33,607 nucleotides of DNA from a virus: IMG/VR virus record IMGVR_UViG_3300036790_000261, positions 88,725-122,331 of that record; one strand, 5' to 3'. The notes below the pieces were generated by a model, which worked only from the letters and a program-made list of their open reading frames with translations, was not told where the DNA came from and did not search any database. The translations under genes and the position numbers were made by a program. Below, piece after piece: positions 2-5,629 of the stretch (the first letter of the stretch is position 1; every line of letters starts with the position of its first letter).

Positions 2-2671
2 GCCGTCTGGCGCCAGTACCCCAGCGGCATCGAGGAAGCGCAGAAGAAGGCCCTGGCCGGGCCGCCGGCCGCCGCCGCGCACGCGGTCTTCATCGATGCC
101 GCTCCCATCGGGGCCTACCGGCTGCCCCCCTGGGAGCCAGCGCACGAGCTGCCTGTCTCCACCATGGAACTCAAGGACGCCTACCTGGTCAACCGCCTCG
201 TCCGGTACGTGCTGTGGCGCCGGTTCACCTGGGCGCGCGGCCTGCAGTGGATGACCTGGACCGGGCGCCGGTGGGAGTCAGTCGACGAGTCCGTGGTGCG
301 CGACGCCGTCCGCGAGTACTTCATCTACCTGCACACCCAGATGCTGCACGCCGATGACGCTGACATGGAATTCCTCAAGTCCATCACCGGGCTGCTGTCC
401 CAGGCGAAGATATCCGCCGCGGTCAAGCTCTGCCAGGGTCACTCCGGCGCCCACATCCGCGACGCCGGCGCGTTCGACGCCCACCCCGACCTGCTGAACA
501 CCCCCGAGGGCATCGTCGACCTGCGTAACGGCACCGTCCTGCCGCACAACCCGGAGCTGCTGCTCACCAAGATCACCCGGGGCTCCTACCGGCCCGGCCT
601 CACCCACCCCGACTGGCAGCAGGCCCTGACCGCACTGGACACCGAGGAGCGCGCGTGGTTCCAGGACAGGATCGGGCAGGCGTGCACCGGCCACCCGCCC
701 TCGGACGGGATCATGCCCGTGCTGCAGGGCAGCGGCGAGAACGGGAAGACCGCGCTCACCACCGACGGCCCCGTCGTCGCGCTCGGGGACTACGCGGACA
801 TGGCCTCGTCCAAGCTGATCGCCAGCGTTACCCCGGGGCGCAGCGAGCACAGCACCGAGATGGCCGACCTCCGCGGGCAGCGCCTCCTACTGGGCGAAGA
901 GCTGGCTGAGGGCCGGTCCATCGACGTCACCGCGCTCAAGCGCATCCAGGACGTCGGCCGGATCAAGGCCCGGCTCGTGCACAAGGACAACATGTCGTTC
1001 GACGCGACGCACACCCTGTTCGTCACCACCAACTACACCCCGGACATTGCCGAGACTGACCACGGTACCTGGCGCCGTCTCGCGCTGCTGAAGTTCAGGT
1101 ACCACTTCAGGAAGCCCGGCGAGTCCATGGAGACCGCATTCGACCGGGCTGGTGACCCCGGGCTGAAGGGGCGGATCAAGAAGAGCCCGACCGGCCAGCA
1201 CGACGCGATCGTCACCTGGGCCGTGGAAGGCGCGATGCGCTGGTACGCCCGGGGAATGGCCGACGCGCAGCCTCCGGGGCAGGTTGTTGAGGACACTCTC
1301 GCGTGGCGCAAGTCAGCTGACAGCATCTGGCGGTGGCTGGAAGAAAACATGAGCGTCCCGGTCACGCTGCCCGACCCTGCCGATCACCCGTGGTGCGTTT
1401 CCAAGGACGAAGCGCTCGACAGCATCAACTCAATGCTGGAAGCAAGCGGGAAGGCGAAGTGGAGTGTCCAGACCTTTACGAGTCGGCTGCTCGGCCACCA
1501 AGAGTCACAACGGGCGGGGATTTCCGAGCTGCGCACGGTTCGCTTGAAGAACATCAGCAGGCCTCCGCTGGGTGCTCCGGGGGCACCTCGGCGCACGCTC
1601 AGTAGCCAGGTGCGAGTGCTCACCGGACTGGTCTTCCGGCCGACAGAGGAAAGCTCTGACCAGGAACTTGCCAGGCTTGCCACTACTCCCAATAATTCCC
1701 CAAGAGTCTCTCCGCGTAAAGGTTTTACTGAGTATGTGGCAACCCCGGCAAGCACTAGCAACTGGGAGCCACCCTCCGGTTATCCGCCTACTCCCCCTCC
1801 AGGCACAGACAGTGACCAAGATCCTGGCGACGGCGACCCGGCCGCCACTAAAAAGAGCCTTCCGCCGGAAACGGGCGAAAACGGCAAAACGCGCAAAAAC
1901 GCCGATTCCCCCCCAAAGCCGAAAATCCCGAAAAACCGGCTCACCGATGAGGAGAAGCTGGAACGCGCCCAGGCGCGGAAGGAGAAGCTGGCCCAGGATC
2001 GCGTTGACGCCCGCGCGGCGAAGGTGGCCGAGCTGGGCGGCCCGCTGGTGCCCCTGCCGGCGATCGTGCTCCGCGACCAGACGATCTTGCCGTGCACCGC
2101 GGAACAGGCCGCAGCGTTCCTGTCCGGGGCGCTGGACGAGGTCTCCGTGGATGTCGAGCACACCGGGTACCCGCGGATGCATGAATTTTATCGCCTAAGG
2201 CTTGTACAGCTAGGGAACGAGGGGGGTAGTGTCGTTTTCGACCCCAACGACGAGGTGCAAGCAGTTGTCATCCGGGATGTGCTCGGGCGAGCGAAGATTC
2301 TGCACGCACACTCGGCGCTGGCGGACTTGATCCCGCTGGAGCACGCGCAGCTAGGCGACAAGACGATGTGGGACAAGATGCGCGACACGGTAATCGCGGC
2401 GAAGTTGAGCGACCCGAGCCTGTGCGACAGCGACGAGGTTGGCCTGAAGGCGTTGGCGCGCAAGCTCCTCGGTGAGGACTACGCGGTCAGCTGGCGGTGT
2501 GACGAGCGCCGAAAGGAAATTTTCGCCGCAGGTGCCTGGATTGAGAATTGCGAGGTGACGACCGCGGTTGAAAGGAGCGGATGGGCGATGATTCCGCTAT
2601 GCGAAGCTTTTATCCGGTACGCGGCCTCTGATATTTTCGATTGCGCGGCAATCGCCCGCGTTCTCGCGTAA
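2..2671 (+). CDS. Primase-helicase (D5/SF3-like) fused to Pol I-type 3'-5' exonuclease; 5' end outside window
   Basis: The frame is open from base 2 and the first in-frame ATG is at 164, so the gene probably starts outside the window. A phage D5/P4-type SF3 helicase is visible: Walker A GSGENGKT (nt 728-751), Walker B LLLGEEL (884-904) and a sensor-1-like LFVTTNYTP (about 1016-1042). A Pro/Ser/Lys-rich linker (about 1740-2040) leads to a DnaQ-fold exonuclease: DVE as Exo I (2150-2158), HSALAD in the Exo II position (2309-2326) and YAASD as Exo III (2618-2632). In these families the helicase opens the fork and the exonuclease proofreads a family A polymerase. A prim-pol domain would be expected in the missing N-terminus (inference). 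The matching polymerase domain is a separate gene at 4421. The helicase call is firm; the exonuclease call is good. Confidence 0.85.
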   Translation, partial: AVWRQYPSGIEEAQKKALAGPPAAAAHAVFIDAAPIGAYRLPPWEPAHELPVSTMELKDAYLVNRLVRYVLWRRFTWARGLQWMTWTGRRWESVDESVVRDAVREYFIYLHTQMLHADDADMEFLKSITGLLSQAKISAAVKLCQGHSGAHIRDAGAFDAHPDLLNTPEGIVDLRNGTVLPHNPELLLTKITRGSYRPGLTHPDWQQALTALDTEERAWFQDRIGQACTGHPPSDGIMPVLQGSGENGKTALTTDGPVVALGDYADMASSKLIASVTPGRSEHSTEMADLRGQRLLLGEELAEGRSIDVTALKRIQDVGRIKARLVHKDNMSFDATHTLFVTTNYTPDIAETDHGTWRRLALLKFRYHFRKPGESMETAFDRAGDPGLKGRIKKSPTGQHDAIVTWAVEGAMRWYARGMADAQPPGQVVEDTLAWRKSADSIWRWLEENMSVPVTLPDPADHPWCVSKDEALDSINSMLEASGKAKWSVQTFTSRLLGHQESQRAGISELRTVRLKNISRPPLGAPGAPRRTLSSQVRVLTGLVFRPTEESSDQELARLATTPNNSPRVSPRKGFTEYVATPASTSNWEPPSGYPPTPPPGTDSDQDPGDGDPAATKKSLPPETGENGKTRKNADSPPKPKIPKNRLTDEEKLERAQARKEKLAQDRVDARAAKVAELGGPLVPLPAIVLRDQTILPCTAEQAAAFLSGALDEVSVDVEHTGYPRMHEFYRLRLVQLGNEGGSVVFDPNDEVQAVVIRDVLGRAKILHAHSALADLIPLEHAQLGDKTMWDKMRDTVIAAKLSDPSLCDSDEVGLKALARKLLGEDYAVSWRCDERRKEIFAAGAWIENCEVTTAVERSGWAMIPLCEAFIRYAASDIFDCAAIARVLA

Positions 2672-3045
2672 GCTGCTAAATCCGAGCACAGCCAAGAAAA
2701 GCGAAGTTAAGTACAGCCTAGCCGTGCCTTGCGTAGCCAAGCCTAGCGGAGCAAAGGATCTGCCTTTCGCGGAGTCTGGCGTAGTTCAGCAAAACAAAGC
2801 ACAGCGTAGGATAACGCGTTTCCACAGCACAGCTGAGTTAAGAATAGCGTAGCTGAGCCCGGTTTAGCGGAGCTGAGCAAAGCCCAGGTTTTTCTTCCGA
2901 AGTCCAGCATTGCCCAGCAAAGTGCAGTTCAGTAGAGCACGCTCTAGCGGAGCTTAGTACAGCGTAGGGACCAAACTCGGAGCTTAGAAAAGCGATGCGC
3001 TAGCCAAGTGGAGCCCAGTTCAGTTTAGCCAAGCGTAGGGATTAC
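2672..3045 (+). repeat. Pentamer array A (NAGYN units, exact 5-base period)
   Basis: This 374-base gap has no gene. It holds about 62 units in which the dinucleotide AG (rarely TG, GG or another) recurs every 5 bases. There are five blocks in strict phase: 2685-2755 (15 units), 2773-2808 (8), 2826-2886 (13), 2901-2966 (14) and 2981-3037 (12, with one 1-base slip). Spacers of about 10-18 bases separate the blocks. The base after AG is mostly C or T. TAG stops occur in every frame, so the array is not translated. The last unit, TAGGG at 3036-3040, is also the Shine-Dalgarno sequence of the gene at 3046. See the finding for possible roles. Confidence 0.9.
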
Positions 3046-3543
3046 ATGACCGACGATGTGTACGTGTTTAAGTCTCCGAGTCGTCCCGGTGAGCTGAAGA
3101 TAGGTCACAGCGGTGACCGGGATCAACGGCTAGTAGCCGCTCGCACCTGGCTGGAGCAGGGCACGTTTATCGCGGAGTACCCCGGTGGCGGGTACGCGAT
3201 GGAGCAGTGGCTGCACCGGCAGCTAGAGGCAGCTGGTTATGAGCGCGACGGGCGGACGGAGTGGTTCCGGTGCGATCTGCGCGCGGTACAGCTAGCCGTC
3301 AACGTGGCGGAAGAAGCCGACGTGGAGTTCGTGGCACGGGCCGTTGCCGAGCAGCGTAAGCAGGAAGCGGCGCGGCAGCGGCTGACGGGGCAGCAGGTTC
3401 AGCGACAACTAGCTCTAGGCGTTCGCGACGCGGCGCTGCATGAAGCACAGGTCGCGCGGGAGAGCGCGCAGCAGGCGCAGAGGTCTTCTCAGCCTCGGTA
3501 CGAGCGCCCGCTGCCCCGGCTCCCGCGAGAAAGAGAGAAGTAG
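3046..3543 (+). CDS. GIY-YIG-like protein of the T5orf172/MUG113 type
   Basis: 165 residues. The N-terminal 85 match the T5orf172/MUG113 branch of the GIY-YIG nuclease superfamily: VYVF then LKIGHS (the GIY and YIG positions), an Arg-containing helix, EQWLHRQL with the usual conserved Glu/His, and TEWFRC at the end of the domain. The remaining 80 residues are a Gln/Arg/Ala-rich helix, probably coiled coil. GIY-YIG proteins cut DNA, and free-standing ones may act as homing endonucleases; activity here is inferred. The gene lies between the exonuclease and polymerase halves of a Pol I, between two pentamer arrays, which suits a mobile insertion. Its ribosome binding site is the final array unit, GTAGGG, 5 bases before ATG. 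Confidence 0.7.
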   Translation: MTDDVYVFKSPSRPGELKIGHSGDRDQRLVAARTWLEQGTFIAEYPGGGYAMEQWLHRQLEAAGYERDGRTEWFRCDLRAVQLAVNVAEEADVEFVARAVAEQRKQEAARQRLTGQQVQRQLALGVRDAALHEAQVARESAQQAQRSSQPRYERPLPRLPREREK

Positions 3544-3548
3544 CAAAG

Positions 3549-4193
3549 ATGGAAAAGGTAGACAACCTCGTTACCGCTGAGATAACCGTGAGTGGCACGG
3601 GATACCTCACGCTGAACAATATCGACGCGGCTAACCCCGATCTCCCGCTGAACAAGGAGCACGCGGCGCTGGTTGACCGTGGCCGCGGAAAAAGCAACCG
3701 CACCGAGGTCGAGGAAGCGCGGATGCGCCGCATTCAATGGGAGCGCAGCCTCTACCTGAGTGCCGACCGGAAGCTCACGTTCCCGACGTACAACATCGCC
3801 TGCTGTTTCGTCGCCGGCGCGAAGAGCTACCGGCTAGGCAGCACCACCGAGCGCGCTCTGACCATGATGGAAATGGACGTTCCGCTGCGTTACGGCCAGG
3901 AGGAGGAGCGTCTCAACGAGATGAATCTCGACAAGCTGTGGGACTCCGGGGTCACGACGTGGAGCACGATTGTCAACGGGAATCCGTCCGCAGCTAAGGG
4001 TAGCTCCAAGGTCATGCTAACCCGGCCGCGCCTTCGCCCTTGGGCCCTTACCTGCACCGTCGAGGTAGACGTCCAGGTTCTCGACTGGGACGACTTTGAA
4101 AAGGTCGTGCACGCATCAGGTCGCGGAGTCGGTATCGGTAACGCGCGTAAGCTCGGACACGGACGGTTCACCGCGGAAATCAAGCAGCTTTAA
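3549..4193 (+). CDS. Conserved phage protein with C-terminal GIGNARKLGHGRF motif
   Basis: 214 residues starting 5 bases after the previous stop, so the two genes probably form an operon. The layout resembles, from memory, a widespread uncharacterised phage family: an N-terminal beta region, a central segment ERSLYLSADRKLTFPTYNI, and a C-terminal RPWALTCTVEVD followed by VGIGNARKLGHGRF. Members are often found near phage replication or recombination genes. The alternating beta/alpha pattern and terminal Gly-rich motif loosely recall RAMP-like folds, which is a guess. It is the only gene flanked on both sides within 600 bases by the pentamer arrays, so it is a candidate array-binding protein (inference). 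Confidence 0.6.
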   Translation: MEKVDNLVTAEITVSGTGYLTLNNIDAANPDLPLNKEHAALVDRGRGKSNRTEVEEARMRRIQWERSLYLSADRKLTFPTYNIACCFVAGAKSYRLGSTTERALTMMEMDVPLRYGQEEERLNEMNLDKLWDSGVTTWSTIVNGNPSAAKGSSKVMLTRPRLRPWALTCTVEVDVQVLDWDDFEKVVHASGRGVGIGNARKLGHGRFTAEIKQL

Positions 4194-4420
4194 AGCACGG
4201 AGCTTAGCGCAGTCGAGTACAGCTGAGTAGAGTGCAGCACAGTATAGCTTTAGCGCAGGATTTACCCGAAACCGTAGATAAGTGAAGCGAAGTGCAGTGC
4301 CGCCAAGCAAAGAGTAGAAAAGCATAGTAATTAATACGGAAGCCACACAGTTCAGCCCAGCGTAGTTAAGCGCGGATAAGCGGAGCTCAGTAGAGTACAG
4401 CCCAGCTTAGGATCTACCCT
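4194..4420 (+). repeat. Pentamer array B (NAGYN units, exact 5-base period)
   Basis: This 227-base gap before the polymerase gene has the same design as array A: AG every 5 bases in three blocks, 4201-4257 (12 units, one 1-base slip), 4276-4326 (11) and 4341-4409 (about 14). Short AT-richer spacers (4262-4274, 4331-4339) separate the blocks. The unit is again NAGYN. The last unit runs into TTAGGATCTACCCT before the GTG start at 4421, so the polymerase's weak ribosome binding site lies within the array. No other stretch of the window shows this periodicity. Confidence 0.9.
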
Positions 4421-5629
4421 GTGACACTTTCTACTGCCTTGCTCGATCGGGAGAAGCAGTTCGCCAAAGCGTTCCGCCCGGCCGCGCTTACCGGGATCAA
4501 GCTCGACCCGCTCCAGGTCGACAAGCTGATCGAAGAGCACACCGGGGGCAGGGACGCGTCCCGGCAGCGCGCTGAGGCCCTTAGCGACGGCCAGATCACC
4601 AACCCGAAGAGCAGCACTCAGGTCGCGCCTTATCTGAGCGCTACGGGCAAGTACGAGCTGCCGCTGAGTGAGAAGACAGGTAAGCCCGGGGCGCCGAAGG
4701 GCGCACTGGAGGTTTACAGCTACCTCGGTGACGAGCTGGCCCAGGCGCTCCTGGAGTACCGCCGGCATGACACCGCGCTGGGCTTGCTGCTGGAGCCGCG
4801 CCGGGAGCTAATCACTCACGGCGACGGCCGGGTGCGAACAAGCATCCTAACTTTGGCCGCGAACACGGGCAGGACTAGCAGTCGTAATGAGAATCTCCAG
4901 CAGATTAGCCGCCAGGGCGGGATGCGGGCGACGCACCTGGCGGAGGACGGCTGCCTGATCATCTCGGCGGACTTCAGCTCGGTGGAGGTGCGGGTCGGGG
5001 CGGCGCTCTCGGGTGACTTGTCGATGAAGAACCTGATCGCGCTGCTGGACGCGTACCCGGAGAAGAAGAAGGAGTACGACTTCCACTGGCGGACCGCGAT
5101 TACCTGCTACGGCCCGGACGCGACGTACGAGAACCGGTATAACTGCAAGCGGGTGAATTTCGCGAAAATGTACGGCTCGGGCAAGAAGAGCGCCGCCGGC
5201 CAGGTCGGCATCCCGCTTCCTGAGGTGTCCCGGGCGTTCGACGCGTTTGACGCGGTCGCGCCGCAGTACAAGGTGTGGGACCAGTGGATGCGCGACTCGG
5301 TGCGTAACGGGATGAAGTCGTTCCCGACGTACAGCGGCCGGGATATCTGGCTGACCGGGAAGGGCGAGCACGCCGCCGGGAATGCCGCCATTCAGGGCAC
5401 CGCAAGGGAGTTCCTGGTGGACGCGGTCGCGAAATGGGAAAAGGGCCGGTGGGGCGGTCACGTGCTCGTTCCGGTGCATGATGAACTGATCTGCTTTGAC
5501 GTGCCGGAGGCCGAGGCGGAGGCGGCGACCGCGTTCCTGATTGACTGCATGGAAGTGCCTGATTTCATGGGCGTGCGCATCGCTGCGGAGGCTAACCAGC
5601 CCAGCAAGTTCTGGATGGACGCCAGCTAG
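4421..5629 (+). CDS. DNA polymerase I-type (family A) polymerase domain, free-standing
   Basis: 402 residues covering only the polymerase domain of a Pol I. All diagnostic motifs are present: TGRTSSRNENLQQI (residues 149-162), motif A ADFSSVEVRVGAALSGD with catalytic Asp184, motif B R239-x3-K243 with NF and YG at 246-252, and motif C VHDE at 352-355. It copies DNA at the fork. The N-terminal 3'-5' exonuclease normally found in the same chain is instead fused to the primase-helicase ending at 2671. Start is GTG, with a weak GGA-type ribosome binding site inside the pentamer array, so translation may be controlled through the array. Function is certain from the motifs. Confidence 0.95.
   Translation: MTLSTALLDREKQFAKAFRPAALTGIKLDPLQVDKLIEEHTGGRDASRQRAEALSDGQITNPKSSTQVAPYLSATGKYELPLSEKTGKPGAPKGALEVYSYLGDELAQALLEYRRHDTALGLLLEPRRELITHGDGRVRTSILTLAANTGRTSSRNENLQQISRQGGMRATHLAEDGCLIISADFSSVEVRVGAALSGDLSMKNLIALLDAYPEKKKEYDFHWRTAITCYGPDATYENRYNCKRVNFAKMYGSGKKSAAGQVGIPLPEVSRAFDAFDAVAPQYKVWDQWMRDSVRNGMKSFPTYSGRDIWLTGKGEHAAGNAAIQGTAREFLVDAVAKWEKGRWGGHVLVPVHDELICFDVPEAEAEAATAFLIDCMEVPDFMGVRIAAEANQPSKFWMDAS

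Follow-up and report, generated by a model that had tools for sequence, protein, structure and literature searches.

A probable VIPR locus with an AGY anchor in a phage genome, with two guides matching replication genes of a sister phage

Pentamer arrays between two replication genes

The window analysed here comprises 33,607 nucleotides of a 122,331-base phage record (IMGVR_UViG_3300036790_000261, positions 88,725 to 122,331). Near its start, two untranslated gaps (2672-3045 and 4194-4420) separate a primase-helicase/exonuclease gene, which extends past the window edge and encodes 1027 amino acids in the whole genome, from a gene for a family-A DNA polymerase (Table 1). Both gaps are filled by arrays of about 98 pentamer units in total, in eight blocks of 8-15 units each, and the two genes lying between them encode a RAMP protein, Vipr, and a protein with a T5orf172 domain. 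Judging from the GC content and from distant protein matches to actinophages, the host may be an actinobacterium.

Table 1. Features of the locus, in window coordinates
Feature	Coordinates	Strand	Remarks
D5 primase-helicase with C-terminal 3'-5' exonuclease domain	2..2671	+	flanking gene
Own exonuclease codons at V1 target position	2177..2217	+	21/28 matches, in frame
V1 vrRNA-like block	2685..2759	+	15 units: 14 guide units and terminal AGGAT
V2 vrRNA-like block	2773..2812	+	8 units: 7 and terminal AGGAT
V3 vrRNA-like block	2826..2890	+	13 units, AGGTT end
V4 vrRNA-like block	2901..2970	+	14 units, AGGGA end
V5 vrRNA-like block	2981..3041	+	12 units, AGGGA end
T5orf172-domain (GIY-YIG-type) protein, 165 aa	3046..3543	+	Pfam PF10544, 1.6e-8
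vipr, RAMP protein (predicted Cas7-like), 214 aa	3549..4193	+	sequence match, predicted fold and tree
V6 vrRNA-like block	4201..4261	+	12 units, AGGAT end
V7 vrRNA-like block	4276..4330	+	11 units, AGTAA end
V8 vrRNA-like block	4349..4413	+	13 units: 12 guide units and terminal AGGAT
Family-A DNA polymerase (polA), polymerase domain only	4421..5629	+	flanking gene, GTG start at 4421
Own polA codons at V8 target position	4697..4731	-	17/24 matches, in frame

The five-base recurrence of AG in eight blocks, described in a first-pass annotation of the bare sequence, is borne out by pair counts. The first gap holds 55 AG dinucleotides forming 42 pairs at lag 5, with 0-1 pairs at most neighbouring lags, and the second holds 39 forming 28 pairs, as against 8.0 +/- 2.9 and 6.4 +/- 2.6 in first-order Markov sequences of the same composition. 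Frequent in-phase blocks in such composition-matched sequences had been named as grounds for abandoning the pattern; the maximum among 20,000 of them was 18 pairs. Further in-phase AG runs are absent from the rest of the window on both strands, as the annotation had stated, and also from the rest of the 122-kb genome. When the 88 non-terminal units of five bases are aligned, A fills the first position 80 times, G the second 86 times and a pyrimidine the third 81 times; the last two positions show no bias (0.01 and 0.04 bits, respectively), and every one of the 16 dinucleotides occurs there. The unit is better framed as an AGY anchor followed by NN than as the NAGYN given originally, which is the same phase in rotation. 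V5 and V6 contain one six-base unit each (TGCGCT and AGCTTT).

Seven of the eight blocks terminate in AGG(AT/GA/TT), followed by short, unrelated spacers. Since blocks without a downstream gene are among them, AGG is a feature of the block and not only a ribosome binding site. The earlier statement that every array closes with the next gene's ribosome binding site applies to V5, whose terminal AGGGA is also suitably spaced from the ATG at 3046 for ribosome binding, and to V8, whose AGGAT also precedes the polA start. The blocks show no evident conserved and structured tail at their 3' ends, predicted folds being no better than shuffled ones, and the locus yielded no Rfam match and, on its plus strand, no sigma-70-like promoters or terminators above chance. 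A tandem-repeat scan of the window detected no CRISPR repeat-spacer array; the blocks are pentamers.

Vipr and its arrays in other phages

The 214-residue protein matches a single solved sequence, PDB 36pp_D, the 'SUSP1 Vipr protein' (phmmer, 1.5e-6, residues 12-211), and an alignment with five annotated phage homologues retains the G-rich C-terminal loop. DNA-level relatives were not found among annotated phages, nor close protein relatives in viral contigs by single-sequence search. A model from the single sequence was unusable (pLDDT 30) and an AlphaFold model from a 51-sequence alignment was confident (pLDDT 92.1, pTM 0.87), so that the alignment was what mattered. In a Foldseek search with the latter, the best solved folds were RAMPs of the Cas7 family (Csm3, type VII Cas7, Cas7-11), with E-values down to 1.9e-6. 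By sequence match and model, the protein is a Vipr homologue, a RAMP with a predicted Cas7/Csm3-like fold, in keeping with the annotation's proposal to look for RAMP-like rings among structure predictions of the protein at 3549. Class 1 CRISPR-Cas effectors, with their Csm3/Cas7 backbone, oligomerise on a guide RNA, the pairing of which is disrupted periodically. They share the Cas7-like RAMP fold with the present locus, which differs in having no repeat-spacer array and no contiguous guide, and in a period of five rather than six.

VIPR, as presented in a 2026 preprint (PMC13142463), is a CRISPR-like phage system of a small RAMP protein, Vipr, and of vrRNAs, built from GGY/NN pentamers, the NN dinucleotides of which recognise double-stranded DNA; one target base is skipped per dinucleotide, and the outcome is transcriptional repression. 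That preprint distinguishes seven types, and its main text admits 'a related consensus' besides GGY. The characterised systems are those of SUSP1 and of a Pseudomonas fulva prophage, the main target examples are satellites and prophages, and the defining features listed include arrays of about 9-16 units flanking vipr, an invariant structured 3' tail and a vap accessory gene (PMC13142463). The annotation's remark that no phage element of this kind had been described thus holds for the older literature, and not since April 2026.

Our locus shares with VIPR a RAMP protein of about 200 residues that is a homologue of SUSP1 Vipr, extended untranslated gaps flanking vipr with same-strand arrays, several vrRNA-like blocks of 8-15 pentamers (one here has 8 units), and a conserved triplet followed by hypervariable NN. 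Also shared is the decoding with a one-nucleotide skip, placed at the wobble base, towards targets in presumably competing phages, sense or antisense, as set out below. It departs from the characterised systems in its AGY anchor, where they have GGY, in having a T5orf172 gene and neither a recognisable structured tail nor vap1, and in its decoded targets, which are replication genes of a sister phage that has no Vipr.

The association of such arrays with vipr extends well beyond this phage. All five annotated phage homologues (Trine, MakoManhole, LittleE, Medea1 and EF202P1) have pentamer arrays beside vipr, with GG or GT anchors, and among 118 Vipr loci compared, 75 have GG arrays, 30 AG and 4 GT, with none detected at 9. 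A search for such arrays in other phage DNA, which had been suggested as a check, turned up many more in viral contigs: a motif-only scan for (AGYNN)x8, using no protein information, gave 46 loci with variable arrays, at 27 of which a Vipr was found in the DNA examined, in every case (27/27) encoded on the strand of the array and no more than 716 nt from it. In a tree of Vipr proteins, that of the window clusters with two other AG-type Viprs (L106 and L186, from uncultivated phages; support 99/99) to which it is 30-36% identical, and which likewise have AGY/NN arrays before and after vipr. Taken together, the 30 of 118 loci, the motif scan and the AG-type clade indicate that the AGY anchor is a recurring variant. 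A vap1-like gene follows vipr in L106 and L186, as in LittleE, MakoManhole and SUSP1-like phages, whereas the window's phage has no vap1 homologue. None of the other Vipr loci compared has a homologue of the T5orf172 gene. This gene belongs to a GIY-YIG-type family whose members are frequently found as homing genes of phages in the vicinity of essential ones (PMC10448857), and we regard it, by sequence, as a homing-endonuclease-like or candidate accessory gene.

Several of the collected loci deserve mention in their own right. In Gordonia phage Trine, the annotated start of gp40 (L002:4600-4704) crosses a GG pentamer array (4643-4704); it is probably mis-annotated, the stretch being a vrRNA. 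A further anchor variant, GT/TT, occurs at a Vipr locus of a 139.5-kb contig (IMGVR_UViG_3300033463_000027, L069:3592-4002). The 7.4 kb examined of IMGVR_UViG_3300037140_000074 contain seven AGY/NN arrays (L133:6526-7087) but no recognisable Vipr, and L195, L124, L104, L167 and L120 are similar; Vipr either lies outside the examined DNA at these loci or is too divergent. Very divergent Vipr-like proteins adjoin AGY arrays at L138, L181, L193, L199, L189, L162 and L109, and possibly represent separate VIPR types. Three closely related Vipr loci (L113, L155 and L202) have one guide in common, GA GC AG AA GA CT TA TT AA, while many of their other guides have turned over; no target for the common guide was found in viral contigs.

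Guide matches in a sister phage

Read as NN dinucleotides, the V1 guide is AC CA AA GA TA AC CT CG CT GT CA CT GG AA, which with a one-nucleotide skip becomes ACN CAN AAN GAN TAN ACN CTN CGN CTN GTN CAN CTN GGN AAN. As codons, this specifies T-H/Q-N/K-D/E-Y-T-L-R-L-V-H/Q-L-G-N/K, close to what the exonuclease domain of the phage itself has at the corresponding place. Viral contigs were scanned with the last eight units of V1 required, or 16 of its 28 positions, which gave 28 matches, of which one, in a contig of 117,211 bases (L254, the same as G001 and here called the sister phage), extended to 26/28, while the extensions of the others remained at background. This match lies in the exonuclease gene of the sister phage, in frame and with the skip at the wobble base. 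Because the sister phage had been chosen by V1 alone and V8 was tested afterwards, V8 constitutes an independent test: its guide, TC CC GT TA GC TA GG TC AG AC CC TT, matches the DNA polymerase gene of the sister phage at 22/24 positions, antisense, again in frame and with the skip at wobble. By a simple binomial expectation, such a V8 match would arise by chance about 2e-6 times per genome of this size, and 4000 shuffled guides reached maxima of 23 for V1 and 19 for V8. Both matches appear only with NN at register 4-5 and a skip of one, all other skips and registers being at background. Neither is perfect, as each misses one whole dinucleotide unit in the sister phage; since the window's phage and the sister phage agree at the failing unit at both sites, a third allele may be what the guides really target. 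V1 and V8 are the outermost guides, V1 adjoining the exonuclease and V8 polA, and their target genes in the sister phage are homologous to these two flanking genes.

Targets of this kind, with a one-nucleotide skip at wobble, were thus found for two of the eight guides, and target searches with V2-V7 gave none. A nine-unit scan with V1 in GTDB genomes returned eight matches, about the chance expectation, with extensions at background; an eight-unit scan with V8 in viral contigs returned four matches and a scan with V3 seven, all at chance level; V3 and V4, allowing up to 3 mismatches, had none in 395 genomes of the class of Kribbella; and within 1.7 Mb of collected loci, guide targets were as frequent as for shuffled guides. 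The best in-frame matches of V4 and V6 in their own genome fall in one tape-measure-like gene (L008:17664-20000; 19/26 and 18/22, p 0.032 and 0.011, uncorrected). Neither guide matches the divergent homologue of this gene in the sister phage. As a weak lead from sequence, they may point to the tape-measure gene of a rival.

The polymerases of the two phages are 73% identical, and the two target genes are about 79% identical at the target codon positions. The target windows diverge about as much as the rest of the two phages, and the difference at the targets is compatible with selection and with ordinary divergence alike. Although the sister phage has the same replication genes, it contains neither Vipr nor arrays. 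Its exonuclease and polymerase genes are separate too, so the break in the replication genes noted by the annotation is there and yet not peculiar to VIPR-bearing phages; the interval there is occupied by different cargo (a ParB/DUF5131 gene) and can thus be regarded as a cargo site. Three direct repeats of roughly 55-60 bases are found at the start of the polA reading frame of the sister phage (G001:C1:104040-104180, L267:4040-4180), within the interval that VIPR occupies in the window.

Weighing the explanations

What can be concluded about the function of the locus? The annotation had offered three readings. One of them, an 11-meric TRAP-like ring bound to NAG triplets and masking the ribosome binding site of the gene that follows, draws on a resemblance that is genuine, with a triplet at 4-5-nt spacing, AG every five bases, blocks of 8-15 units compared with about 11 repeats in TRAP, and Shine-Dalgarno-like AGG at the end of the last block before each gene. 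However, the phage has no match to the TrpBP/TRAP family, the gene between the arrays encodes a RAMP, and the arrays of relatives adjoin vipr; internal blocks have no gene behind them, and position 3 is restricted to Y while positions 4-5, between the anchors, carry decodable guide information. What would remain of the proposal is an RNA-binding protein that oligomerises, each subunit contacting one unit; TRAP itself has a negligible probability. Equally little credit is due to the other two readings, an origin of replication containing iteron-like sites, or a tract that bends DNA and is phased by half a helical turn. The adjoining primase-helicase and polymerase genes would suit them, as would the raised A+T content of the arrays (54-55% GC vs about 65%), but the sister phage has the same replication genes without arrays, and in LittleE and Medea1 arrays and vipr lie amid other neighbours, namely tail genes. 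Moreover, the NN positions are maximally variable, and this hypervariability, the association with Vipr and the decoded targets are all left unexplained by an origin or a bending tract.

Within a VIPR interpretation, the two matches could still be coincidental. That a target was found for just two of eight guides, and that V1 itself seeded the scan which found the sister phage, might speak for this; yet V8 had no part in that selection, none of its 4000 shuffles exceeded 19, and both sites obey the same frame rule, with a wobble skip, in homologues of the flanking genes, making coincidence very improbable. Somewhat less remote, and still unlikely, is a self-directed system, in which V1 and V8 would tune the phage's own exonuclease and polA, as an autoregulation of replication, or guard against superinfection by the phage itself. 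In its favour, the targets are the genes adjoining the locus, and their own copies match in frame at 21/28 and 17/24. The sister phage, however, is the better match at both sites, and with own and sister genes about 79% identical at these codon positions, the partial match to the phage's own genes is no more than homology by itself would produce.

We consider it very probable that we are dealing with a VIPR system in which AGY serves as the anchor and the eight blocks as guides, V1 and V8 being directed against the exonuclease and DNA-polymerase genes of sister phages. The VIPR reading is based on the homology and predicted fold of Vipr, the anatomy of the arrays, the pairing of arrays with vipr, and the two guide matches. 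By analogy with the characterised VIPR systems, which is the basis for RNA expression, RNP assembly, DNA binding and repression, the eight blocks would be made into guide RNAs (vrRNAs), on each of which Vipr subunits would polymerise, one per pentamer, gripping AGY and exposing NN. The string of NN would then pair with double-stranded DNA, one target base being skipped after each dinucleotide, usually the wobble base of a codon, and the complex would block transcription of the target. Through V1 and V8, the replication of a co-infecting or competing relative would be shut down at its exonuclease and DNA-polymerase genes, while the phage's own diverged copies, with seven mismatches each, would escape. 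The two phages are presumably competitors in one host.

A further scenario, which we put forward tentatively and hold to be rather doubtful, is an RNA-guided marker exclusion, with VIPR as cargo between exonuclease and polA and its outermost guides aimed at the sister alleles of both. If so, the replication genes of a co-infecting sister phage that lacks the locus would be silenced, and the VIPR allele would spread by recombination together with its escape-variant flanks, perhaps with the help of the T5orf172 nuclease, as a guide-directed analogue of the marker exclusion by homing endonucleases.

Seen from raw sequence, the gapped VIPR code would thus also be used with an AGY anchor, and the locus would present a natural case in which decoded guides point to replication genes of a sister phage, rather than to a satellite or prophage. 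As the target genes flank the locus, it may tie RNA guidance to the classical marker exclusion of phages in a specific and testable way. Searching for the AGY motif, finally, is a simple means of retrieving many divergent Vipr loci, and would help to map the RAMP lineage that has been proposed as a forerunner of CRISPR.
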